Assembly (NCBI GenBank): GCA_913055845.1
Contig: CAJXKO010000001.1
Location: forward strand, 1-64,000
Source of the DNA: an uncultured Bacteroidota bacterium
GTDB taxonomy: Bacteria; Bacteroidota; Rhodothermia; Rhodothermales; Salinibacteraceae
DNA: 64,000 bases
Direction: 5' to 3'
The translations under genes were made by a program, and so were the position numbers. This document shows, in pieces, positions 32,620-42,174 of this stretch. Below the pieces are notes generated by a model that was not told the origin of the DNA, ran no database searches, and was given only the letters and a program-made list of their open reading frames with translations. How positions within the stretch are numbered: position 1 is the stretch's first letter; the number at the start of each line of letters is the position of its first letter.

Positions 32620-33798
32620 TCAAATCCGCGGCCGCTGTTTCGATCGCCGCTTTCGGGACCCGGTGGGCCCGAGGCCCGCCTCGCGGAGGCGGCGCTCCAT
32701 GAGCCGAAAGAAGGCGTCCCGCTCCGAGGCCCGCACCACGGCGCGCTCGTGGGCCTCCGACAGCGCCAGCGGATAGCCCTCGCCCTTGCGACACTCCCGC
32801 AGCACCGTGGCGTGGACGCGGTCAAGGAGCGCCGGAGCGTCGGCCACCCAGCGGGGTACCTCAACGCGCCCGAGCTCGCCACCACTAGGCCCAGGCACCT
32901 TCAGATAGAAAAACGCAATGTCGGTCCCCGTTGGGTATTCCCCCTGAATGTGCGAGGCCGACCCAAAGACCGCCGACCGCTCACCCGGTCCTAGTACCGT
33001 GGCGAGAACATGCCGGTCGAGCAGTCCATCGAGACGGGGTGCATCAGGCGGTTCGTTAGGGGACGAGGGGGGCGCCACGTCGAGGTCGCCCCCCACAAAC
33101 CGCAGCAGGTTGACCACCTCCGTGCTGGCAGGGAGACTGACGTACGACGCCAGGGCCAGGCCCTCGTCCCGAAAGCGTTCAAGACACTCGGTGTAGCGGG
33201 CAATGAGCTCGTCTTCGAGGATTGCATTGTCCATCCCCCGAATCATCCACCGGATGAGGGTACCGTCCGCCAAGGCCACGAGGGGACGCTCCGGCACACG
33301 GGCGGTGGTGGCCGCCTCCAAGAGCTTGCTCAGCTCCAGTTCGTCGCGGAGGGCCGAAACCAGCTCGGTCGGAATTGTGTCGAGCGGGGCGTCGAACCGA
33401 GCAGCGAGCGGCTCCCGGAAGTGCAGGGACGGGGTTGCCTCCAAAAGCGCCTCCTCTGTGGTGCCGTACTGGAAGGCCACCTGACTCACGTTGAGCAGAA
33501 AAAACGGCGGCTCCATATGGCGGTCGGGGTAGATCTGGGAGCCGTCCGTGGCGACCACGGTGACCGGCGACGGGCGCTCCGGAGCCGCACGAGTACCGGC
33601 AGGAGGCTCGCGCATCTTGGCAACGAGGCGACGCGGCTGGGCCGACGTCACGGCGTCCTGCATCGCTTGCCACTGTTCGTGACAGTGCCGCAGCAGCGTC
33701 CGCGCTCGCTTCTGCTGCGCGCTCCGCCGATCCTGGCGCTCGGATTGCTCCTCCTCGAAGATCGTGAGTTGGTCGCGCAACTGGCGGAGGTCAAGCAT
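32620..33798 (-). CDS. NurA-domain nuclease
   Basis: 392 residues from the ATG at 33798. The NurA fold is indicated by the metal-binding 'VVATDGSQIYPDRH' strand, then 'LVALADGTLIRW' with a second acidic cluster, and a C-terminal 'YPTGTDIAFFYLKVP' segment. NurA proteins are 5'-3' single/double-strand nucleases that normally pair with the HerA translocase in DNA-end resection. The N-terminus has a coiled coil about 1-45. No herA is in the window; the next gene may supply a HAS-barrel. Divergent from the voltage-sensor-like gene. Confidence 0.8.
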   Translation of the reverse strand: MLDLRQLRDQLTIFEEEQSERQDRRSAQQKRARTLLRHCHEQWQAMQDAVTSAQPRRLVAKMREPPAGTRAAPERPSPVTVVATDGSQIYPDRHMEPPFFLLNVSQVAFQYGTTEEALLEATPSLHFREPLAARFDAPLDTIPTELVSALRDELELSKLLEAATTARVPERPLVALADGTLIRWMIRGMDNAILEDELIARYTECLERFRDEGLALASYVSLPASTEVVNLLRFVGGDLDVAPPSSPNEPPDAPRLDGLLDRHVLATVLGPGERSAVFGSASHIQGEYPTGTDIAFFYLKVPGPSGGELGRVEVPRWVADAPALLDRVHATVLRECRKGEGYPLALSEAHERAVVRASERDAFFRLMERRLREAGLGPTGSRKRRSKQRPRI

Positions 33799-33924
33799 GA
33801 CGGACCAAAAGAATTCTGAACGAGTGCGGTTCGGGCGTGTCGTCCTGACGGAGTGGTCCCCCCCGCCTCGCCCAACCGGCGTGACCCGCCTCATCGCTCG
33901 TTTCCCTCAACACAACTTGCCCCC

Positions 33925-34953
33925 ATGGCCGACCGATCGACTCGCGAAACACTGGGCCTGATCGTCGACGTGGTGATGATGGTCCTCATCGTCGTCAACC
34001 TTGCCCTCATCATTGTTGACTGGGGCTTTGCCAGCCCGTTCGTACAGGCTCAGATGCAGTCCCATACGCCCGCCTTGTACAGTTGGTACGACCAGACGAT
34101 CCACCAGCACTTTATTGTCTACGACCTGGCGTTCGTAACGGTCTTCGTGGTGGAGATTCTGATACGCTGGGGACTGGCCATCTACCGGCAGCGCTACCAC
34201 CGCTGGTTCTTCTATCCCTTCGTCCACTGGTACGACGTCCTCGGCTGCATCCCCGTGGGCTCGTTGCGCTCACTGCGCCTCTTACGGCTGATTGCGATGG
34301 TGCCGAAGCTCCAGCGCACCGGCCTGGTCGACCTCCGCGACACCTACCTCTACAAAACGTTTGAGAAGTACCGCGACATCGTGCTCGAAGAGATCAGCGA
34401 CCGGGTGACGGTGCGCATTATTGAGGGCCTGCAGAACGAGATTCGAACGAGCCAGAAGGTTACAACGCGAATCGGCAAGGAGGTAATCGCACCGCAGCGG
34501 GAGGCCCTCATCGAGGCCGTTACCCACCGGTTGCAGGAGGCCACGGCCGTCGCCTACGAGAGCCAGCAGGACGACTTTCACGAATACCTTGACGGGGTGA
34601 TCGAGAACGCCGTGACCCGCAATCGAGAAATCAGTACCATTGCCTCGCTGCCCGGTGTGGGGCGCCCCGTGGCCGAGCTCCTCGAAAGCGCCATCAGCGA
34701 CATCGTCTTCAACGTCGTCGACCAGATGGTGCGGGACGTGTGCTCGCTCGACAACGATCAGGCCGTCGCGGAGGTGACGTCAGTCTCGGCAGACGCCCTG
34801 ATGAGCCCCAAGTACGATCGGCGCCTCAATCAACTCGCCCGGTCGATGGTGCTCCAGTCCCTCGACGTGATCAAGGACCACGTCCAGATCCGACGGTGGA
34901 AGGAGCAGGACCCGCTCGCTGTCTCGTCCGACGGAGCCCCCGCCACGCCCTGA
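33925..34953 (+). CDS. Membrane protein with voltage-sensor-like region, no pore
   Basis: 342 residues from the ATG at 33925. Residues about 11-33 and 62-83 are transmembrane helices, 95-110 is S3-like ('HWYDVLGCIPVG'), and 113-127 is S4-like with Arg at every third place (R115, R118, R121 in 'SLRSLRLLRLIAMV'). That is the pattern of ion-channel voltage sensors. No P-loop selectivity filter follows; instead about 200 residues of cytoplasmic helices and coiled coil ('GLQNEIRTSQKVTTRIGKEV'). It overlaps nothing and ends four bases before the HemW-like gene, so the two are probably one operon. Function unknown. Confidence 0.72.
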   Translation: MADRSTRETLGLIVDVVMMVLIVVNLALIIVDWGFASPFVQAQMQSHTPALYSWYDQTIHQHFIVYDLAFVTVFVVEILIRWGLAIYRQRYHRWFFYPFVHWYDVLGCIPVGSLRSLRLLRLIAMVPKLQRTGLVDLRDTYLYKTFEKYRDIVLEEISDRVTVRIIEGLQNEIRTSQKVTTRIGKEVIAPQREALIEAVTHRLQEATAVAYESQQDDFHEYLDGVIENAVTRNREISTIASLPGVGRPVAELLESAISDIVFNVVDQMVRDVCSLDNDQAVAEVTSVSADALMSPKYDRRLNQLARSMVLQSLDVIKDHVQIRRWKEQDPLAVSSDGAPATP

Positions 34954-34957
34954 TTTC

Positions 34958-36010
34958 ATGGCCGCCCTCTACGTTCACGTTCCATTTCGGGAATCGCCCT
35001 CCTCGGCCGAGGCCGCCGCGTTTGTGGCGACGGTCGTTCGCGAGATGGCGCAATACGCCCGCCCTCCCTTCGCCGCCGCGTCGTTCCAGACACTCTACGT
35101 GGGGGGCGGTCGCCCATCCCTCCTTCCTGAATCCTCGATGCGCACGCTCTTGGAGGCGTGCTATCAATATTTCGACACAACGGACGTGCAGGAGGTAACT
35201 CTAGAACTCCACCCATCCGACGCGTCGCCGCCCGTTCTGACGGCGTTTCGTCGGCTCGGGATCACGCGGCTGAGTATTGCCTCGCGACCGCTCACGGGTG
35301 CGACCCTGCGCCCGCTTCTCCAAAAAATCCGGCACGCTGGCTTCGAACGAATCTCGCTCGACCTCTTTTTCGGCGGCCCCGGGCACTCGCTCGGGGCCTG
35401 GAAAGCCCGTCTCCACCAGGCCGTGGACCTACGAGTGCCCCACGTGGCGCTCCACGAACGGGTCCCGACCGGAGATCAGGACGCCCCTGAACGAACTGGT
35501 TACTTCGCGTACGCCATGACGTTTCTCGGCGCCAAGGGCTACGTGCAGTACGAACTCACCCACTTTGCCCGACCCGGCCACCGCTCTCACTACCAGACCC
35601 ACGTCTACGCCCACGGCAACGTCCTGGGGCTGGGCCCGGGCGCCGAGAGTTTCTGGTGGACCGACCGCACCGATCCGTCGGCGGCGCGGCGATGGTCGAA
35701 CGCGGCGGACGTAGCGACGTACAGAGAGCGACTGCACCACGATGCATCCCCCGTGACACAGCGCGAGCGCCTTGCCCCCCTCGCCCTAGCCCACGAGTAC
35801 GTCCTCCTTCGTCTACGGACGGGCACAGGCCTGGATCTCAGCGTGCTCGCGAACCGCTACGGCCTTCCGCTACGCGACCGCCACGCCGAAACCCTAGAGC
35901 GCCTCGCAGCAGAAGGACTCATCCACGACGATCCCGACCGCGTCCGCCTCACCGCCCGTGGGCGTCTCCTCGCCGATGCCATCACGAAGCGATTGATGCG
36001 GGATTCGTGA
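34958..36010 (+). CDS. HemW/CPO-like protein lacking radical-SAM cysteines
   Basis: 350 residues, overall alignment to HemW (oxygen-independent coproporphyrinogen oxidase-like): 'MAALYVHVPF' start, 'TLYVGGGRPSLL', 'LELHPSD', 'ERISLDLFFGGPGHSLGAW', 'YELTHFARPGHRSHYQ' and 'LGLGPGAESFWW', plus a C-terminal winged helix ('LVxxxxx' region to the end). The CxxxCxxC cluster motif that should follow 'PF' is replaced by R11-S15-E18, and the whole protein contains a single Cys ('LEACYQYF'). It cannot bind the usual [4Fe-4S]-SAM centre, so it is a non-enzymatic paralogue or has a new role, perhaps heme binding as in HemW. Probably in an operon with the preceding membrane protein. Confidence 0.82.
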   Translation: MAALYVHVPFRESPSSAEAAAFVATVVREMAQYARPPFAAASFQTLYVGGGRPSLLPESSMRTLLEACYQYFDTTDVQEVTLELHPSDASPPVLTAFRRLGITRLSIASRPLTGATLRPLLQKIRHAGFERISLDLFFGGPGHSLGAWKARLHQAVDLRVPHVALHERVPTGDQDAPERTGYFAYAMTFLGAKGYVQYELTHFARPGHRSHYQTHVYAHGNVLGLGPGAESFWWTDRTDPSAARRWSNAADVATYRERLHHDASPVTQRERLAPLALAHEYVLLRLRTGTGLDLSVLANRYGLPLRDRHAETLERLAAEGLIHDDPDRVRLTARGRLLADAITKRLMRDS

Positions 36011-36118
36011 GGCATGAGAACGGAGTTCGGAGAAGATCACGCGTCACGCCTTCCGCTCCCTTGCCCAAAGCACTCCCTCCTTCGAAGACCAGCACAACCC
36101 CAGCAATCGCTCACCGCA

Positions 36119-36583
36119 ATGCCTGAAATTCGCCGTGCCAGCACTGAGGCCGACCTGGATGCCGCTCGGCGTCTGTTCCGGTCGTACGCCGAGAGCCTGG
36201 ACTTCGAGCTCGACTTCCAGGATTTTGAGGCGGAACTGGCGGCGCTCCCCGGCCCGTACGCGTCTCCCGACGGTGCAATTCTGCTGGCGGAAATCGACGG
36301 GGCGCCGGTCGGCATCGTGGCCGTGCAGCCGCTCGGCGACGATGCCTGCGAGATGAAGCGCCTCTACGTGACCCCTGACCACCGAAACCAGGGCATTGGC
36401 CGCGCCCTCGCGTCCGCCATCGTCGAGGAAGCCCGGACGCTCGGCTACGACGTGATGCGGCTCGACACCGTGGCGTCCATGACGGCCGCCCGACGTCTCT
36501 ACTGGTCCCTCGGGTTCGAAGAACGAGAGGCCTACTACCACAACCCGCTGGACGATGCCGTGTATATGGAGCGTCCCCTCTAG
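36119..36583 (+). CDS. GNAT-family N-acetyltransferase
   Basis: 154 residues from the ATG at 36119. Acetyl-CoA motif A is seen in 'MKRLYVTPDHRNQGIGRALASAIV' (V-x-x-x-xRxxGxGxA) with the usual preceding beta-strands ('ILLAEIDGAPVGIVAV'). The tail 'ARRLYWSLGFEEREAYYHNPL' is the common 'lone' GNAT ending. Substrate unknown. The upstream in-frame extension to 36014 is unconserved. Its stop is 14 bases before the DUF192 gene, so it likely begins a three-gene unit. Confidence 0.88.
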   Translation: MPEIRRASTEADLDAARRLFRSYAESLDFELDFQDFEAELAALPGPYASPDGAILLAEIDGAPVGIVAVQPLGDDACEMKRLYVTPDHRNQGIGRALASAIVEEARTLGYDVMRLDTVASMTAARRLYWSLGFEEREAYYHNPLDDAVYMERPL

Positions 36584-36599
36584 CCACAGCCGGTTCCCC

Positions 36600-37088
36600 A
36601 TGCGTTCCCTCTTGTTTTGTCTTTCTTTCACCCTCGCCATCCCGCTGCTGGCCGGGTGCACAGAAACCGGTGACCGGACCAGCACCGACGACCTGCGCAC
36701 GTTTCGGGACGAGGGCGTCCTGGCCTTTACCCAGCCAACTGGCGACACGCTCGCAACGATCACCATCGACGTGGCCGACACCGACGCGGAGCGACGGCGG
36801 GGGCTCATGCAGCAGCGGAGCCTCGGCTACGATCGGGGCATGCTCTTCGTGTTCGAGACCGTGGACCGCGGCAGTATGTGGATGAAAAACACGCCCCTGC
36901 CCCTCGACATTATCTTCGTGGCGCCGGACTCACAGATCATCAACATCACCCGCCGTACGACGCCCCTCTCGGAGGAGCAAATTACCCCCGAGGCGCCGCG
37001 CAAGTTCGTCGTGGAAGTCCGCGCCGGCTTTGCCGATCGCTTCGGCCTGACCGATAGCACCCGCGTCCGGTGGACCCACACGAACTAA
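36600..37088 (+). CDS. DUF192 lipoprotein, copy 1
   Basis: 162 residues from the ATG at 36600, with a lipoprotein signal: hydrophobic core then 'LLAGC' (Cys near residue 20). The DUF192 domain covers about 45-160: 'TITIDVADTDAERRRGLMQQ', 'GMLFVFETVDRGSMWMKNT', 'PLDIIFVAPDSQIINI', 'RKFVVEVRAGFADRFGL'. DUF192 proteins are small secreted or lipid-anchored proteins of unknown function with a compact beta fold. Directly followed by a paralogue. Confidence 0.88.
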   Translation: MRSLLFCLSFTLAIPLLAGCTETGDRTSTDDLRTFRDEGVLAFTQPTGDTLATITIDVADTDAERRRGLMQQRSLGYDRGMLFVFETVDRGSMWMKNTPLPLDIIFVAPDSQIINITRRTTPLSEEQITPEAPRKFVVEVRAGFADRFGLTDSTRVRWTHTN

Positions 37089-37091
37089 CTG

Positions 37092-37120
37092 CCTCGCCTC
37101 CCCTCGCCTCCCCTCGCCCC
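37092..37120. repeat. Ten-base tandem repeat between DUF192 genes
   Basis: cctcgcctcc is repeated twice with a shortened third copy (cctcgcccc) in the 32-base gap between the two DUF192 genes, ending immediately before the second ATG. A slippage-prone spacer that could tune translation of the second copy. Confidence 0.6.
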
Positions 37121-37648
37121 ATGGATGTCTCGCTGTCCCTCCGTCGCACCCTGTTTCTCACGACCCTAATCGGCACGGTGCTCGTCGGCAGCCTCGCCTG
37201 TGGCCGCTCGGGCGACTCGCCCTCGACGGACGCCGACGCGGACACGACGGGCCCCATTCCCTTTACTATAGAGGGCCGCCTCGCGTTCATTCAGGACGGC
37301 GACTCGACCGTCACCATCGACATCGAGATTGCCGACACGGACTCGGCCCGAGAGCGCGGCATGATGCAGCGCGAGGGATTCCCCAATGACCGGAGTGGAA
37401 TGCTCTTTCCATTCCAGAAGGAAGAGCCTCAGAGCTTTTGGATGTCGAACACGCCCGTCGCGCTCGACATCATTTTCGTTGACGCAGACTCGCAGATCGT
37501 GAACATCGCGAAGTACACCACGCCGTTCTCCTCCGAGAACTACCGCTCCGGCGAGCCGGCACAGTACGTAGTGGAGGTGCCCGCCGGTTTCGCGGACTCG
37601 CACGGGATATTGGAGGAAGACCGCATTCGGTGGCGGCGGCTGGACTGA
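37121..37648 (+). CDS. DUF192 lipoprotein, copy 2
   Basis: 175 residues from the ATG at 37121. Lipobox 'GSLAC' near residue 27 after a hydrophobic stretch; DUF192 domain follows with 'VTIDIEIADTDSARERGMMQ', 'GMLFPFQKEEPQSFWMSNT', 'VALDIIFVDADSQIVNI', 'AQYVVEVPAGFADSHGI'. Clear paralogue of the preceding gene with the same architecture, most likely a tandem duplication that has diverged. Convergent with the A-type Fe-S carrier gene. Confidence 0.88.
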   Translation: MDVSLSLRRTLFLTTLIGTVLVGSLACGRSGDSPSTDADADTTGPIPFTIEGRLAFIQDGDSTVTIDIEIADTDSARERGMMQREGFPNDRSGMLFPFQKEEPQSFWMSNTPVALDIIFVDADSQIVNIAKYTTPFSSENYRSGEPAQYVVEVPAGFADSHGILEEDRIRWRRLD

Positions 37649-37696: not shown

Positions 37697-38029
37697 TTAC
37701 ACCCCGAAAGACTCCCCGCACGCACACTCGCGAGAGGCCTGGGGATTGGAGAAGTGAAAGCCGTCCCCATTCAACCCGTCGGTGAAGTGCAATTCGGATC
37801 CGTCAAGGTAGAGGCGGCTCTTTTTGTCCAGTACCACCGTGATGCCGTCGTGCTCTTCAACCTTATCCTCCTCCTGCACGGTCGTCTCCCACCCGAGATC
37901 GTACGTGAGGCCCGAGCAGCCGCCCGGCACCACGGCCACGCGGAGAAGCGTCTCGTTGAGGTCCACGTCTTTGTTCAGCGCCACCGTCTCAATCTGATCG
38001 ACGGCCGCATCGGTCATCGTAATGGTCAT
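37697..38029 (-). CDS. A-type Fe-S carrier (SufA/IscA/ErpA family)
   Basis: Iron-sulfur cluster carrier that accepts clusters from SufBCD and passes them to apo-enzymes. 110 residues from the ATG at 38029. The three conserved cysteines are present: one in 'VVPGGCSGLTYDL' and two in 'SRECACGESFGV'. The upstream in-frame extension to 38365 is unconserved. It faces away from sufB with a 356-base shared intergenic region that contains a palindrome, so both may share regulation. SufA versus ErpA cannot be settled. Confidence 0.93.
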   Translation of the reverse strand: MTITMTDAAVDQIETVALNKDVDLNETLLRVAVVPGGCSGLTYDLGWETTVQEEDKVEEHDGITVVLDKKSRLYLDGSELHFTDGLNGDGFHFSNPQASRECACGESFGV

Positions 38030-38385
38030 GGCAGAACCAGCGTTCGTGCAGGCATCCATCGGACCATTGAATACCGCCGCACAAAACCGGAGGTTTCTCC
38101 CAACCCGTCTCCCTCGCGCCGACGACCTTTCCCTCTTGCCCCCTCCCCGTACACCCGAGCCCACGGCGCCCCCCCGACCGTCAACTTCCCACGAAGATGT
38201 AACGCACCTTCCCCCGGAGGAACGACCCGTGCCCCCCCTTGTTGTAACCGCACGTTGACACAGAGAAAAGCGTAAACATCGGTTTACACTCGGGGCCATC
38301 ACTCGGCGCCCAAGAGCGGCCTCCCCCGAGAAACCGGTGCTCTCCATCCGCATCGGACCACGCACGAGATGACGAGGGACCGTTT
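38030..38385. other. Divergent control region, A-type carrier and sufB
   Basis: 356 bases with no supportable gene, flanked by divergently transcribed Fe-S genes. It holds a palindrome at 38272-38287 and a TTGACA at 38255-38260 without a well-spaced -10/-7 box. No SufR-type CAAC-N6-GTTG or obvious IscR site was recognised. Confidence 0.5.
38272..38287. promoter_or_regulatory. Inverted repeat upstream of sufB (candidate operator)
   Basis: gtaaac (38272-38277), four bases atcg, gtttac (38282-38287): a perfect 6-4-6 inverted repeat about 100 bases before the sufB start. Its position in the carrier/sufB divergent region suggests control of Fe-S assembly. The binding protein is unknown. Confidence 0.45.
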
Positions 38386-39849
38386 ATGAGCACTTCCGAG
38401 ACCGAATACCTTAAGGGAAAGGCCAGCGAGGACTACAAGCACGGCTTTTACACCGACATCGAGACGGAAAAAGCGCCTAAGGGCCTCACCGAGGATGTCG
38501 TTCGCTACATTTCGCATCGTAAGGACGAGCCCGAGTGGCTTCTGAACTGGCGCCTGAAAGCCTTCCGCCACGTTCGTGACCGCATTGACAGCGGAGAGAC
38601 GATCGATTGGGCGCACCTCGACTACGAGGCGCCCAAGTTCGACGAGATTAGCTACTTTTCCGCCCCGAAGGACAAGGCCAGCTACGACAGCCTCGACGAC
38701 GTGCCCGACGAGATTCTGGAGACGTTCGAGCGGCTCGGCATTCCGCTGGAAGAGCAGAAGGCGCTCACCGGCGTGGCCGTCGACGCCGTCATGGATAGCG
38801 TCTCGGTGGCCACTACGTTCAAGGAGAAGCTGAAGGAGAAGGGTGTGATCTTCAAGTCCTTCGGCGAGGCCGCTCGCGACCACCCCGAGATCGTACGGGA
38901 GTACATGGGCACGGTCGTCCCGTACACCGACAACCTGTACGCCGCTCTCAATTCGGCAGTCTTCAGCGACGGGTCGTTCGTGTACGTGCCGGAGGGCGTG
39001 ACCTGCCCGATGGAGCTGTCCACCTACTTTCGCATCAACGAGGCGGGCACCGGTCAGTTTGAGCGCACACTCATTGTCGCCGAGCCGGGCGCCTACGTGA
39101 GCTACCTGGAGGGCTGTACCGCACCGATGCGCAAGGAGAACCAGCTCCACGCAGCCGTGGTGGAGCTCATCGCCCACGAGGACGCGGAGATTAAGTACTC
39201 CACGATCCAAAACTGGTACCCGGGCGACCCGGACACCGGTGAGGGCGGTGTGTACAACCTCGTCACGAAGCGCGGCCTCTGCAAGGGCGACAACTCCAAG
39301 ATCAGCTGGACCCAGCTGGAAACCGGCTCGGCCGTCACCCAGAAGTACCCGAGTGTCATCCTGGCCGGCGACGACTCGGTCGGCGAGTTCTACTCGGTGG
39401 CCTTCACGAAGGGGCACCAGCAGGCCGATACGGGGACGAAGATGCAGCACATCGGGAAGAACACAAAGAGCACCATCATCTCGAAGGGCATCTCGGCCGA
39501 CGTGGCGGACAACAGCTACCGTGGCCAGGTAAAGGTGAGCAAGAATGCCGACAACGCCCGCAACTTCTCGCAGTGCGACTCGATGCTACTCGGGCCCGAC
39601 TGCGGCGCACACACCTACCCCTACATCGAGAGCAACAACCCTACGGCTCAGATCGAGCACGAGGCGACCACCTCGAAGGTCGGCGACGACCAGATGTTCT
39701 ACTGTCACCAGCGCGGCCTCGGTGAGGAGGAAGCCCTGAAGCTGATCGTAAACGGCTTCTGCCAGGAGGTTCTCCAGGAGCTCCCGATGGAATTCGCCGT
39801 GGAGGCGAAGGAGCTCCTCGACATTGAGCTCGAAGGGTCGGTCGGCTAG
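38386..39849 (+). CDS. sufB: Fe-S cluster scaffold protein SufB
   Basis: Central scaffold of the SUF machine, where clusters are built on the SufB2C2 or SufBC2D complex. 487 residues, normal length. Family marks: 'SYDSLDDVPDEILETFERLGIP', 'DGSFVYVPEGVTCPMELSTYFRI', 'LEGCTAPMRKENQLHAAVVEL', and the functional cysteine in 'NFSQCDSMLLGPDCGAHTYPY', followed by the Glu/His-rich 'IEHEATTSKVGDDQMFYCHQRG'. First gene of sufBCDSE-sufT. Confidence 0.98.
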   Translation: MSTSETEYLKGKASEDYKHGFYTDIETEKAPKGLTEDVVRYISHRKDEPEWLLNWRLKAFRHVRDRIDSGETIDWAHLDYEAPKFDEISYFSAPKDKASYDSLDDVPDEILETFERLGIPLEEQKALTGVAVDAVMDSVSVATTFKEKLKEKGVIFKSFGEAARDHPEIVREYMGTVVPYTDNLYAALNSAVFSDGSFVYVPEGVTCPMELSTYFRINEAGTGQFERTLIVAEPGAYVSYLEGCTAPMRKENQLHAAVVELIAHEDAEIKYSTIQNWYPGDPDTGEGGVYNLVTKRGLCKGDNSKISWTQLETGSAVTQKYPSVILAGDDSVGEFYSVAFTKGHQQADTGTKMQHIGKNTKSTIISKGISADVADNSYRGQVKVSKNADNARNFSQCDSMLLGPDCGAHTYPYIESNNPTAQIEHEATTSKVGDDQMFYCHQRGLGEEEALKLIVNGFCQEVLQELPMEFAVEAKELLDIELEGSVG

Positions 39850-39868
39850 GCCCTGACCTGAACGGATC

Positions 39869-39904
39869 GGAGGGGTGGGCGTGCGGACGCTGCTCGCCCC
39901 TCCC
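39869..39904 (+). terminator. GC-rich imperfect hairpin between sufB and sufC
   Basis: ggaggggtgggcg and cgcccctccc can pair with a small bulge around a 13-base loop. No T-run follows. It may be a leaky stop or mRNA-stabilising hairpin that sets the ratio of SufB to SufCD. Confidence 0.3.
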
Positions 39905-39963
39905 CCCCGTCCCCTTACGTCCCAACTTCCAATCATCCACACATACACTCTCAACCCCCGAAC

Positions 39964-40737
39964 ATGGCACTCCTAGAAATCGAAAATCTGCACGTTGGCG
40001 TCGAAGGTGAAGACATTCACATCCTCAAGGGCGTGGATCTCACGTTGGACACGGGCGACCTCCACGCCATCATGGGGCCGAACGGCTCCGGCAAGAGCAC
40101 GCTCGCCTCGGTGATTGCCGGGCGTGAGGAGTACGAAGTCCTTGATGGAGAAATTCGCTACGACGGGGATGACCTGCTGGAACTGGAACCGGAAGAGCGC
40201 GCCGAGGAGGGAATCTTCCTCGCGTTTCAGTATCCGGTGGAGCTGCCCGGCGTGAGCATGACGAACTTCTTGAAGGAGGCCGTCAACGCTGTCCGTGAGG
40301 CGCGCGGCCAGGACGAGCTCTCTTCGGCCGAGTTCCTCCAGCAGATGCGCGAACGGGCCGACATGATGGGCCTCGACGCCGACCTTACGAAGCGGTCGGT
40401 CAACGAAGGCTTCTCTGGTGGCGAGAAGAAGCGCAACGAGATCTTCCAGCTTGCCATGCTGGAACCCCGACTCGCCATTCTCGACGAGACGGACTCCGGC
40501 CTTGACATTGACGCCCTCAAAAATGTGGCCGACGGCGTCAACAAGTTGCGCGACGAGGATCGCGGCTTCCTGGTCATCACCCACTACGAGCGCATTCTGC
40601 AGTACATCGTCCCCGACCGCATACACGTCATGATGGACGGGAAGGTGGTGCGCTCCGGCGACAAGGACCTCGCCCAGCAGCTTGAGGAGCACGGCTACGA
40701 ATGGATCCGTGAAGAAGCGGCGGCGGCCGCGGCATAA
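39964..40737 (+). CDS. sufC: Fe-S assembly ATPase SufC
   Basis: ABC-type cytoplasmic ATPase of the SUF complex; drives structural change in SufB/SufD. 257 residues. Walker A 'GPNGSGKSTLASVIAG', SufC-type signature 'SGGEKKRNEIFQLAML', Walker B 'LAILDETDSGLDIDAL', and H-loop 'VITHYERIL'. No membrane partner, as expected. Gap to sufB 114 bases with a hairpin, gap to sufD 96 bases. Confidence 0.98.
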   Translation: MALLEIENLHVGVEGEDIHILKGVDLTLDTGDLHAIMGPNGSGKSTLASVIAGREEYEVLDGEIRYDGDDLLELEPEERAEEGIFLAFQYPVELPGVSMTNFLKEAVNAVREARGQDELSSAEFLQQMRERADMMGLDADLTKRSVNEGFSGGEKKRNEIFQLAMLEPRLAILDETDSGLDIDALKNVADGVNKLRDEDRGFLVITHYERILQYIVPDRIHVMMDGKVVRSGDKDLAQQLEEHGYEWIREEAAAAAA

Positions 40738-40833
40738 CCCTCTGGCCGCATTCTAGGGCCGCGGGATGACCGTCGCGCCCCCCCGTCCTCCAGCCGCATC
40801 CTTCTCCCGATTACACACCCAACGCTTCTCATC

Positions 40834-42174
40834 ATGAGCACCGCACTCGACACGGATGTTCGCCCCGAAGATCGGTTCATCTCAGCCTTTGAGGTGAACC
40901 ACGGCCAGGCGCTAAACGGGACGAACGCCTCCATCGCCCAACAGCGCGAGGACGCCATCGAGCGCTTCTCAGCGCTCGGCATCCCAACCAACAGCCTGGA
41001 GGCCTGGAAGTACACCGACATCTCGAAGATCATCGACCGGCCGTACGCCCTCCCCCTTGCCCCCGAGGTCCCGTCGGTCGACCCGAGCGACATCGCGCCC
41101 TTCACCATCGACGACATGGACGCACACCGCGTTGTGCTCGTCAACGGCCGCGTTGATCCGTCGCTCTCTGATCTCGGCGACCTGCCGTCGGGCGTCGTCG
41201 TAAGCAGCCTTACCCAGGCTGGCGACGCGCACCCCGACATTGTGGAGGCCCACTACGGCCAGTACGCAGACTTCGAAGACGAGGCGCTTACGGCCCTCAA
41301 CACCGCCTTCGTACAGGATGGCGCGTTCGTCTACGTGCCCTCCGGCACCGTCGTGGAAAAACCAATCTTCTTCCTTCACGTGACGGCCGGGCAGGAGGAT
41401 CTCTTTCTCCAACCGCGCCATCTGTTCGTGGTCGAAGACGGCGCCATCGCCCGCATCGTGGAGGCCCAGCACTCACTGACCGACGCCCACACGTTCACCA
41501 ACACGGTGACCGAGACCTTCGTCGGCGAACGGGCCAACCTTGAGCACTACCTCGTTCAGGACGAAGGCCCCAACGCCTCCCAGGTGCACACCCGCGCCGG
41601 ACAACAGAAAGACGACAGCGTGTACTCGACCAACACGGTTACCTTCAGCGGCGAGGTGGTGCGCAACAACGCCAACATTGAGGCGGACGGCTCCTTCTGC
41701 GAGTCGAACCTTTACGGCCTCTGCATCGGCAAAGAGGACATGCACGTGGACAATCACACGCAGATGAACCATGTGCAGCCGGACTGCAACAGCAATGAGC
41801 TGTACAAGCACGTTCTCAACGACGAATCCACCGCCGTCTTTAACGGCAAGGTGCTGGTCACACGTGGGTCCCAGCGGATCGACGCCTACCAGCAGAACGA
41901 CACCATCGTTCTGACCCACGACGCGAACATCTACACCAAGCCGGAACTTGAAATTTACGCCGACGACGTGGTGTGCAGCCACGGGGCCACGACGGGGCAG
42001 GTCGACGAGGAGGGCGTCTTCTATCTCCGCTCTCGCGGCCTCTCGGAGCGCCGCGCCCGCATCCTCATGCTGCAGGCCTTCTGCGATGAGGTCCTGAGCG
42101 AGTACAAGATCGACGCGCTGCGCAACCACATCACCGAGAAAATCCGGCAGCGCTTCGCCAACTACTTCTCATAA
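40834..42174 (+). CDS. sufD: Fe-S cluster assembly protein SufD
   Basis: SufB paralogue that completes the SufBC2D scaffold and helps acquire iron. 446 residues; N-terminal helical part, then a beta-helix core ('[21 protein letters not shown]', 'NAFVQ'-like strands), and the conserved '[20 protein letters not shown]' and '[18 protein letters not shown]' segments, ending in '[20 protein letters not shown]', typical of SufD. Reads in one run with sufC and sufS. Confidence 0.97.

Follow-up and report, generated by a model that had tools for sequence, protein, structure and literature searches.

Introduction

HemW binds one haem and delivers it (PMC11442138), and a short sequence, HNxxYW, has been described as its haem motif (PMC10320005; PMC11834973). 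The E. coli protein is reported to bind haem without its [4Fe-4S] cluster but to need the cluster for transfer to NarI (PMC10320005, citing Haskamp 2018), from which it follows that a cluster-less protein could bind haem and yet not carry out the cluster-dependent transfer. The roles of the cluster and of SAM in HemW are not settled, and a bacterial family in which the protein persists without the motifs for either, beside intact relatives, offers a natural experiment.

The protein considered here is encoded in a 64,000-nucleotide stretch of contig CAJXKO010000001.1 (hereafter the window) from an uncultured member of the Salinibacteraceae. A sequence-only reading of this DNA had noted a HemW-like open reading frame that lacks the cluster cysteines, and had suggested either a pure haem or porphyrin binder or a new role together with the membrane protein encoded just upstream.

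Results

The window protein is the HemW of its genome

The reading frame begins with ATG and its product has a single Cys. It lies in the following setting:

32620-33894, minus strand: NurA-domain protein, conserved left neighbour (Pfam, locus comparison)
33925-34953, plus strand: family-specific predicted membrane protein, 4 bp upstream of the HemW start
34958-36010, plus strand: Cys-less HemW orthologue, candidate pseudo-radical-SAM protein, 350 aa (locus, gene tree, translation)
36555-37648, plus strand: two DUF192 proteins, conserved right neighbours (locus comparison)
37697-42174: Fe-S assembly genes, an Fe-S_biosyn (A-type) protein on the minus strand, then SufB, a SufC-like ABC protein and SufD on the plus strand

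When 20 loci of the same family were compared with 20 from other families of the order, HemW commonly proved to be a neighbour of nurA, with one or two DUF192 genes downstream of it and, in many cases, an A-type Fe-S protein and sufBCD after those. This neighbourhood occurs both with and without the HemW cluster, parts of it being missing at contig ends and in some genomes. The cluster-less protein is encoded next to Fe-S assembly genes, in an arrangement common to many intact HemW of the order.

Profile searches place the protein less directly. Among the NCBIfam models the best E-value belongs to STM4012 (NF006067; 102.1 bits, cut-off 380). HemW (TIGR00539; 93.8 bits, cut-off 205.4), HemN (TIGR00538; 59.1 bits, cut-off 324.95) and PsgB (TIGR04419; 48.7 bits, cut-off 300) score lower, and membership of the STM4012, HemN and PsgB families was rejected because all three scores are far below their cut-offs. 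Five of six related proteins scanned in the same way score best with HemW. In the gene tree, from which the truncated L061 was excluded and in which L048 was used in part, the Cys-less proteins all fall to one side of a branch that lies next to the order's intact HemW (support 100/99, and 100/97 in a second tree). Because of its locus and its place in the gene tree, we regard the window protein as a HemW orthologue and not a second copy. The separate intact HemW that the earlier reading had thought worth seeking in the same genome was not found: the only other relative found there is an intact HemN (584.5 bits), none of 13 genomes of the genus holds a HemW above the TIGR00539 cut-off, and the altered protein is itself the orthologue. 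An extra paralogue beside an intact HemW was accordingly rejected, as no intact HemW was found in the genome and the locus is the HemW locus. We take the window protein to be the HemW that this halophile of Salinibacteraceae type inherited vertically.

Loss of the cluster motif and changes in the pocket

Aligned with its relatives, the protein shows these elements:

34985-35011, plus strand: former [4Fe-4S] loop, residues 10-18 (FRESPSSAE), with Cys replaced by Arg at 11 and about 10 residues deleted (alignment)
35102-35119, plus strand: former SAM motif GGGTPS, now GGGRPS, residues 49-54 (alignment)
35456-35458, plus strand: E167 (alignment column)
35591-35608, plus strand: residues 212-217, YQTHVY, where the haem motif HNxxYW would lie (alignment; motif as given in PMC10320005 and PMC11834973)
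35777-35971, plus strand: HemN_C domain (PF06969), 52.4 bits where the cut-off is 24 (Pfam)

The loss of cysteines is real. CX3CX2C is absent from all six frames of 34601-36200, so that neither a displaced motif nor a simple frameshift accounts for the loss. The earlier reading of R, S and E at residues 11, 15 and 18 is correct, but the relatives reveal a deletion of about ten residues in the window protein, so S15 and E18 are not strict equivalents of Cys2 and Cys3, and R11 is the sole clean substitution of a cluster cysteine. Most relatives have R-x3-R-x2-D at the former cluster site. The claim that every HemW landmark outside the cluster is recognisable was too strong: the HemN_C domain is retained, but GGTP has become GGRP, and GVQSF Q, the E-x3-TPL loop and HNxxYW are lost or altered. 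Pfam Radical_SAM (PF04055) has no match in the window protein at E values up to 1, against 86.3 and 89 bits in the intact L066 and L176, 40-44 bits in the Cys-less genera g5 and g4, and 25 bits in L053; across the proteins in which this score falls, HemN_C stays at 38-52 bits.

Some of the changes are uniform across the Cys-less proteins and others are not. With L061 and L062 left out of the column counts, Glu occupies position 167 in all 19 scored Cys-less rows, and not one of the 24 aligned intact rows has it there; the Arg of GGRP (R52) is present in 17 of 19, the two g5 rows having Thr, and hence in 17 of 17 outside g5. R11 is missing in G012 and g2, and the old cluster loop is deleted in G012 and in the window protein. 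At the haem motif N is kept in four of the 19 rows and W in four; positions 248-249 are mostly HQ in the family, HNxxYW is retained in g4, and the strict pattern is also missing from 22 of 90 intact HemW in a phylum-wide sample. In the long-branched L177-L179 (genus g47) the cluster is intact and HNxxYW has changed to HTxxYW (HTxxHW in L178).

Cluster loss is widespread in the family

Among 27 genomes of the family, 21 have a HemW without the motif, four have an intact one (G102-G105) and in two (G088 and G101, both incomplete, where a search for nurA also gave no match) none was found. The 21 are the window protein and L044-L063, from six genera, L061 being counted through its N-terminal deletion. 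CX3CX2C is thus present in 0 of 20 further family loci, as against 20 of 20 HemW fetched from the order's other families (a subset of the 79 genomes searched outside the family). It is intact in 90 of 90 HemW of the phylum sample, which comprised 99 genomes: 90 scored (nine of them from the order as well), 8 not fetched, and the genome that holds the window. A scan of a contig collection found the motif in 72 of 80 loci; the eight without it are family members, the named organisms being Salinivenus lutea, S. iranica and Longimonas halophila. With search patterns drawn from the Cys-less proteins, the scan is not a census, and similar losses may therefore exist elsewhere.

The orthologues with the same loss that the earlier reading had called for therefore exist, and they dispose of the sequencing error that it had named as a possible refutation. 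An artefact, whether a sequencing error, a wrong start or a displaced motif, is refuted for the family as a whole by the same loss in 20 other loci, and for the window, with its single Cys and no CX3CX2C in any frame, it is exceedingly improbable; the window copy could differ in details alone.

Fold and selection

An AlphaFold2 model of the window protein (pLDDT 94.6, pTM 0.92) most closely resembles, among solved structures, HemN 1olt (Z 31.0; 340 residues superposed at rmsd 3.3; the next entry has Z 11.8). The structural check that had been proposed thus bears out a HemN-type barrel, confidently predicted.

It might be supposed that the family simply needs HemW less, that the catalytic half was lost first, that the gene is now disappearing and that what is left is a weakly selected or leftover remnant. 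Such slow decay is a serious rival to a functional cluster-free protein, second to it in probability and ahead of the re-purposing considered below, and the selection data bear on it in both directions. Over 11 pairs, dN/dS of the Cys-less HemW is 0.12-0.41. In four close genus pairs it is 0.28-0.39, the highest of the correctly paired locus genes (mispaired IscA and DUF192 rows, marked by dN over 1 or by very low identity, were excluded), and in six genus pairs it is about 1.5-2.5 times that of NurA, compared with 1.2-1.4 times in two intact pairs. Two of the 21 Cys-less copies look broken: in L061, from an isolate of Salinivenus iranica, a clean deletion has removed the start and the N-terminus, while L062, from a genome of low completeness, has a frame change near the C-terminal end. 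These features, together with the further deletions in the window protein and G012 and the failure to find HemW in the incomplete G101 and G088, are what decay would produce. Against it, dN/dS is as low as 0.12-0.16 within g3, g4 and g5, and 19 of the 21 copies are full-length at dS up to about 1.6, whereas neutral simulation at distances of 0.35 or more left an open frame in no more than 8 of 400 runs. The newly fixed R52 and E167 also speak against decay, as does the confident predicted fold. Selection on the Cys-less HemW is purifying but somewhat relaxed.

Constraint is also distributed differently along the protein. When 18 of the 21 Cys-less sequences and 12 intact ones were compared half by half, the N-terminal half was the less conserved in 133 of the 153 pairs of Cys-less sequences but in 25 of the 66 pairs of intact ones (the pairs are not independent): in the Cys-less HemW, constraint has shifted to the C-terminal half.

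One loss or two

The cluster was lost at least once in the family, and the evidence for one loss or two is divided. In a species tree built from rpoB, IF-2 and five locus genes (an earlier concatenated tree had dropped nine loci with little data), the Cys-less g5 branches deepest (99), followed by the intact g46 (66) and g47 (100) and then by the other Cys-less genera; G098 has an oddly long branch in this tree. The intact g47 shares T186, T237 and H238 with the Cys-less genera outside g5, T186 being present in g5 as well, and g5 retains GGTP and GVQSF Q, plus N at 249 and W at 253. The species tree, the residues shared with g47 and those kept by g5 suggest two independent losses. The gene tree, on the other hand, suggests one, as do R11, E167, A20, T22 and the loop deletion, and these last features, apart from A20 and T22, are common to g5 and most other Cys-less members. 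A constrained tree in which the non-g5 Cys-less rows and g47 form a clade is not rejected (p-AU 0.106), and one that joins g5 and g46 alone is rejected (p-AU 0.003).

A history in which the cluster was lost separately in g5 and in g1-g4 plus g6, with like changes in the pocket each time (Arg at Cys1, Glu at 167, the loop deleted), and which led to a cluster-independent haem or porphyrin carrier or to a partner of the family-specific membrane protein, strikes us as doubtful. Were it true, the cluster would be separable from whatever role HemW has retained.

The upstream membrane-protein gene

The protein encoded at 33925-34953 has no Pfam family over cut-off, the Ion_trans match (E 0.2) falling far below it, and its structural model is poor (pLDDT 48.6); the label 'voltage-sensor-like' that it had been given is a guess. 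Over the same pairs the protein shows stronger conservation than HemW does. Its gene is present in 20 of 20 family genomes (26 of 27 in a fuller count) and in 0 of 79 genomes from the rest of the order. In L061 the deletion (~7150, compared with L057) that removes the start of hemW also takes the stop of the membrane-protein gene.

It is tempting to speculate that the emptied SAM and cluster pocket, with R11, R52 and E167, binds some other ligand and now serves with this membrane protein in a role unrelated to haem. In favour of such re-purposing, the membrane-protein gene is restricted to the family and immediately precedes hemW in the window and in 17 of 20 further family loci, as against none of 20 loci from other families; the four-base spacing that had been read in the window is confirmed, the gap is 10-19 bp in 10 of 16 other loci (starts being approximate), and some residues are invariant in a clade-specific way. 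The linkage, however, may be chance gene order. The gap is 34-158 bp in the remaining 6 of 16 loci, with the same approximation of starts, and the gene is not adjacent to hemW in g5, in L062 or in the four intact family loci. It is unlinked in g46 and g47, and both G102-G105, with intact HemW, and the Cys-less g5 carry it elsewhere. Its presence therefore does not track cluster loss, and its linkage to hemW looks secondary. The absence of R11 from G012 and g2 and the loop deletions in G012 and the window also fit poorly with a conserved new pocket, and the membrane-protein model is too poor to use. We consider a re-purposed, non-haem role rather improbable. The membrane protein as the cause of cluster loss was rejected, since it is present, unlinked, both with intact HemW and in Cys-less g5.

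Discussion

The explanation that we favour, tentatively and at somewhat less than an even chance, is that the Cys-less HemW is a pseudo-radical-SAM HemW with a plain haem- or porphyrin-binding role that resides in its retained C-terminal half. The window protein would no longer bind a [4Fe-4S] cluster or SAM and would form no radical; the retained barrel and HemN_C domain might carry or sequester haem or a porphyrin, and handover might perhaps require docking and nothing more, dispensing with the cluster-dependent step that has been reported for transfer by E. coli HemW. The haem reading is weakened by YQTHVY at the HNxxYW position, and the alteration of this motif in most family members, a dN/dS higher than that of NurA and the two broken copies all count against the explanation as a whole. 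Bacterioferritin, a reported partner of HemW, is uninformative here, since 0 of 99 genomes of the order have a Bfr match over cut-off. A role in defence was considered and rejected, since PADLOC matched none of the three proteins concerned (HemW-like, membrane and NurA).

There is also a practical consequence for annotation, as Cys-less HemW fall under the HemW and Radical_SAM cut-offs or risk being labelled coproporphyrinogen oxidase by homology. A literature search covering titles and the beginnings of abstracts recognised no report of a Cys-less HemW.

How, then, does the protein compare with what has been described? With HemW (TIGR00539) it shares the locus, ancestry, a similar length, the HemN_C domain and many residues of the C-terminal half, but it has neither CX3CX2C nor GGTP, the E-x3-TPL loop is deleted and HNxxYW is altered. 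HemN, the oxygen-independent coproporphyrinogen III oxidase (TIGR00538), provides the closest solved fold (1olt), and the genome encodes an intact HemN of its own besides. The STM4012 family radical SAM protein (NF006067) gives the best E-value, yet with a score far below its cut-off. CgdH2 of Campylobacter jejuni resembles HemN and is reported to bind haem although it has no HNxxYW (PMC10320005); it differs in keeping the cluster motif and in sitting in a menaquinone-methyltransferase clade. PsgB (TIGR04419), 'HemN-related non-iron pseudo-SAM protein', is to judge by that name a cluster-less relative of HemN, and gives proteins of this general kind a precedent. It is a parallel case and not the same family, because the PsgB profile scores the window protein far under its cut-off and no higher than it does the intact L066 (62.6 bits) and L176 (84.2 bits). 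Going by the name of PsgB, a family of cluster-free HemN relatives has already been described, and the window protein is a separate variant, a Cys-less HemW.
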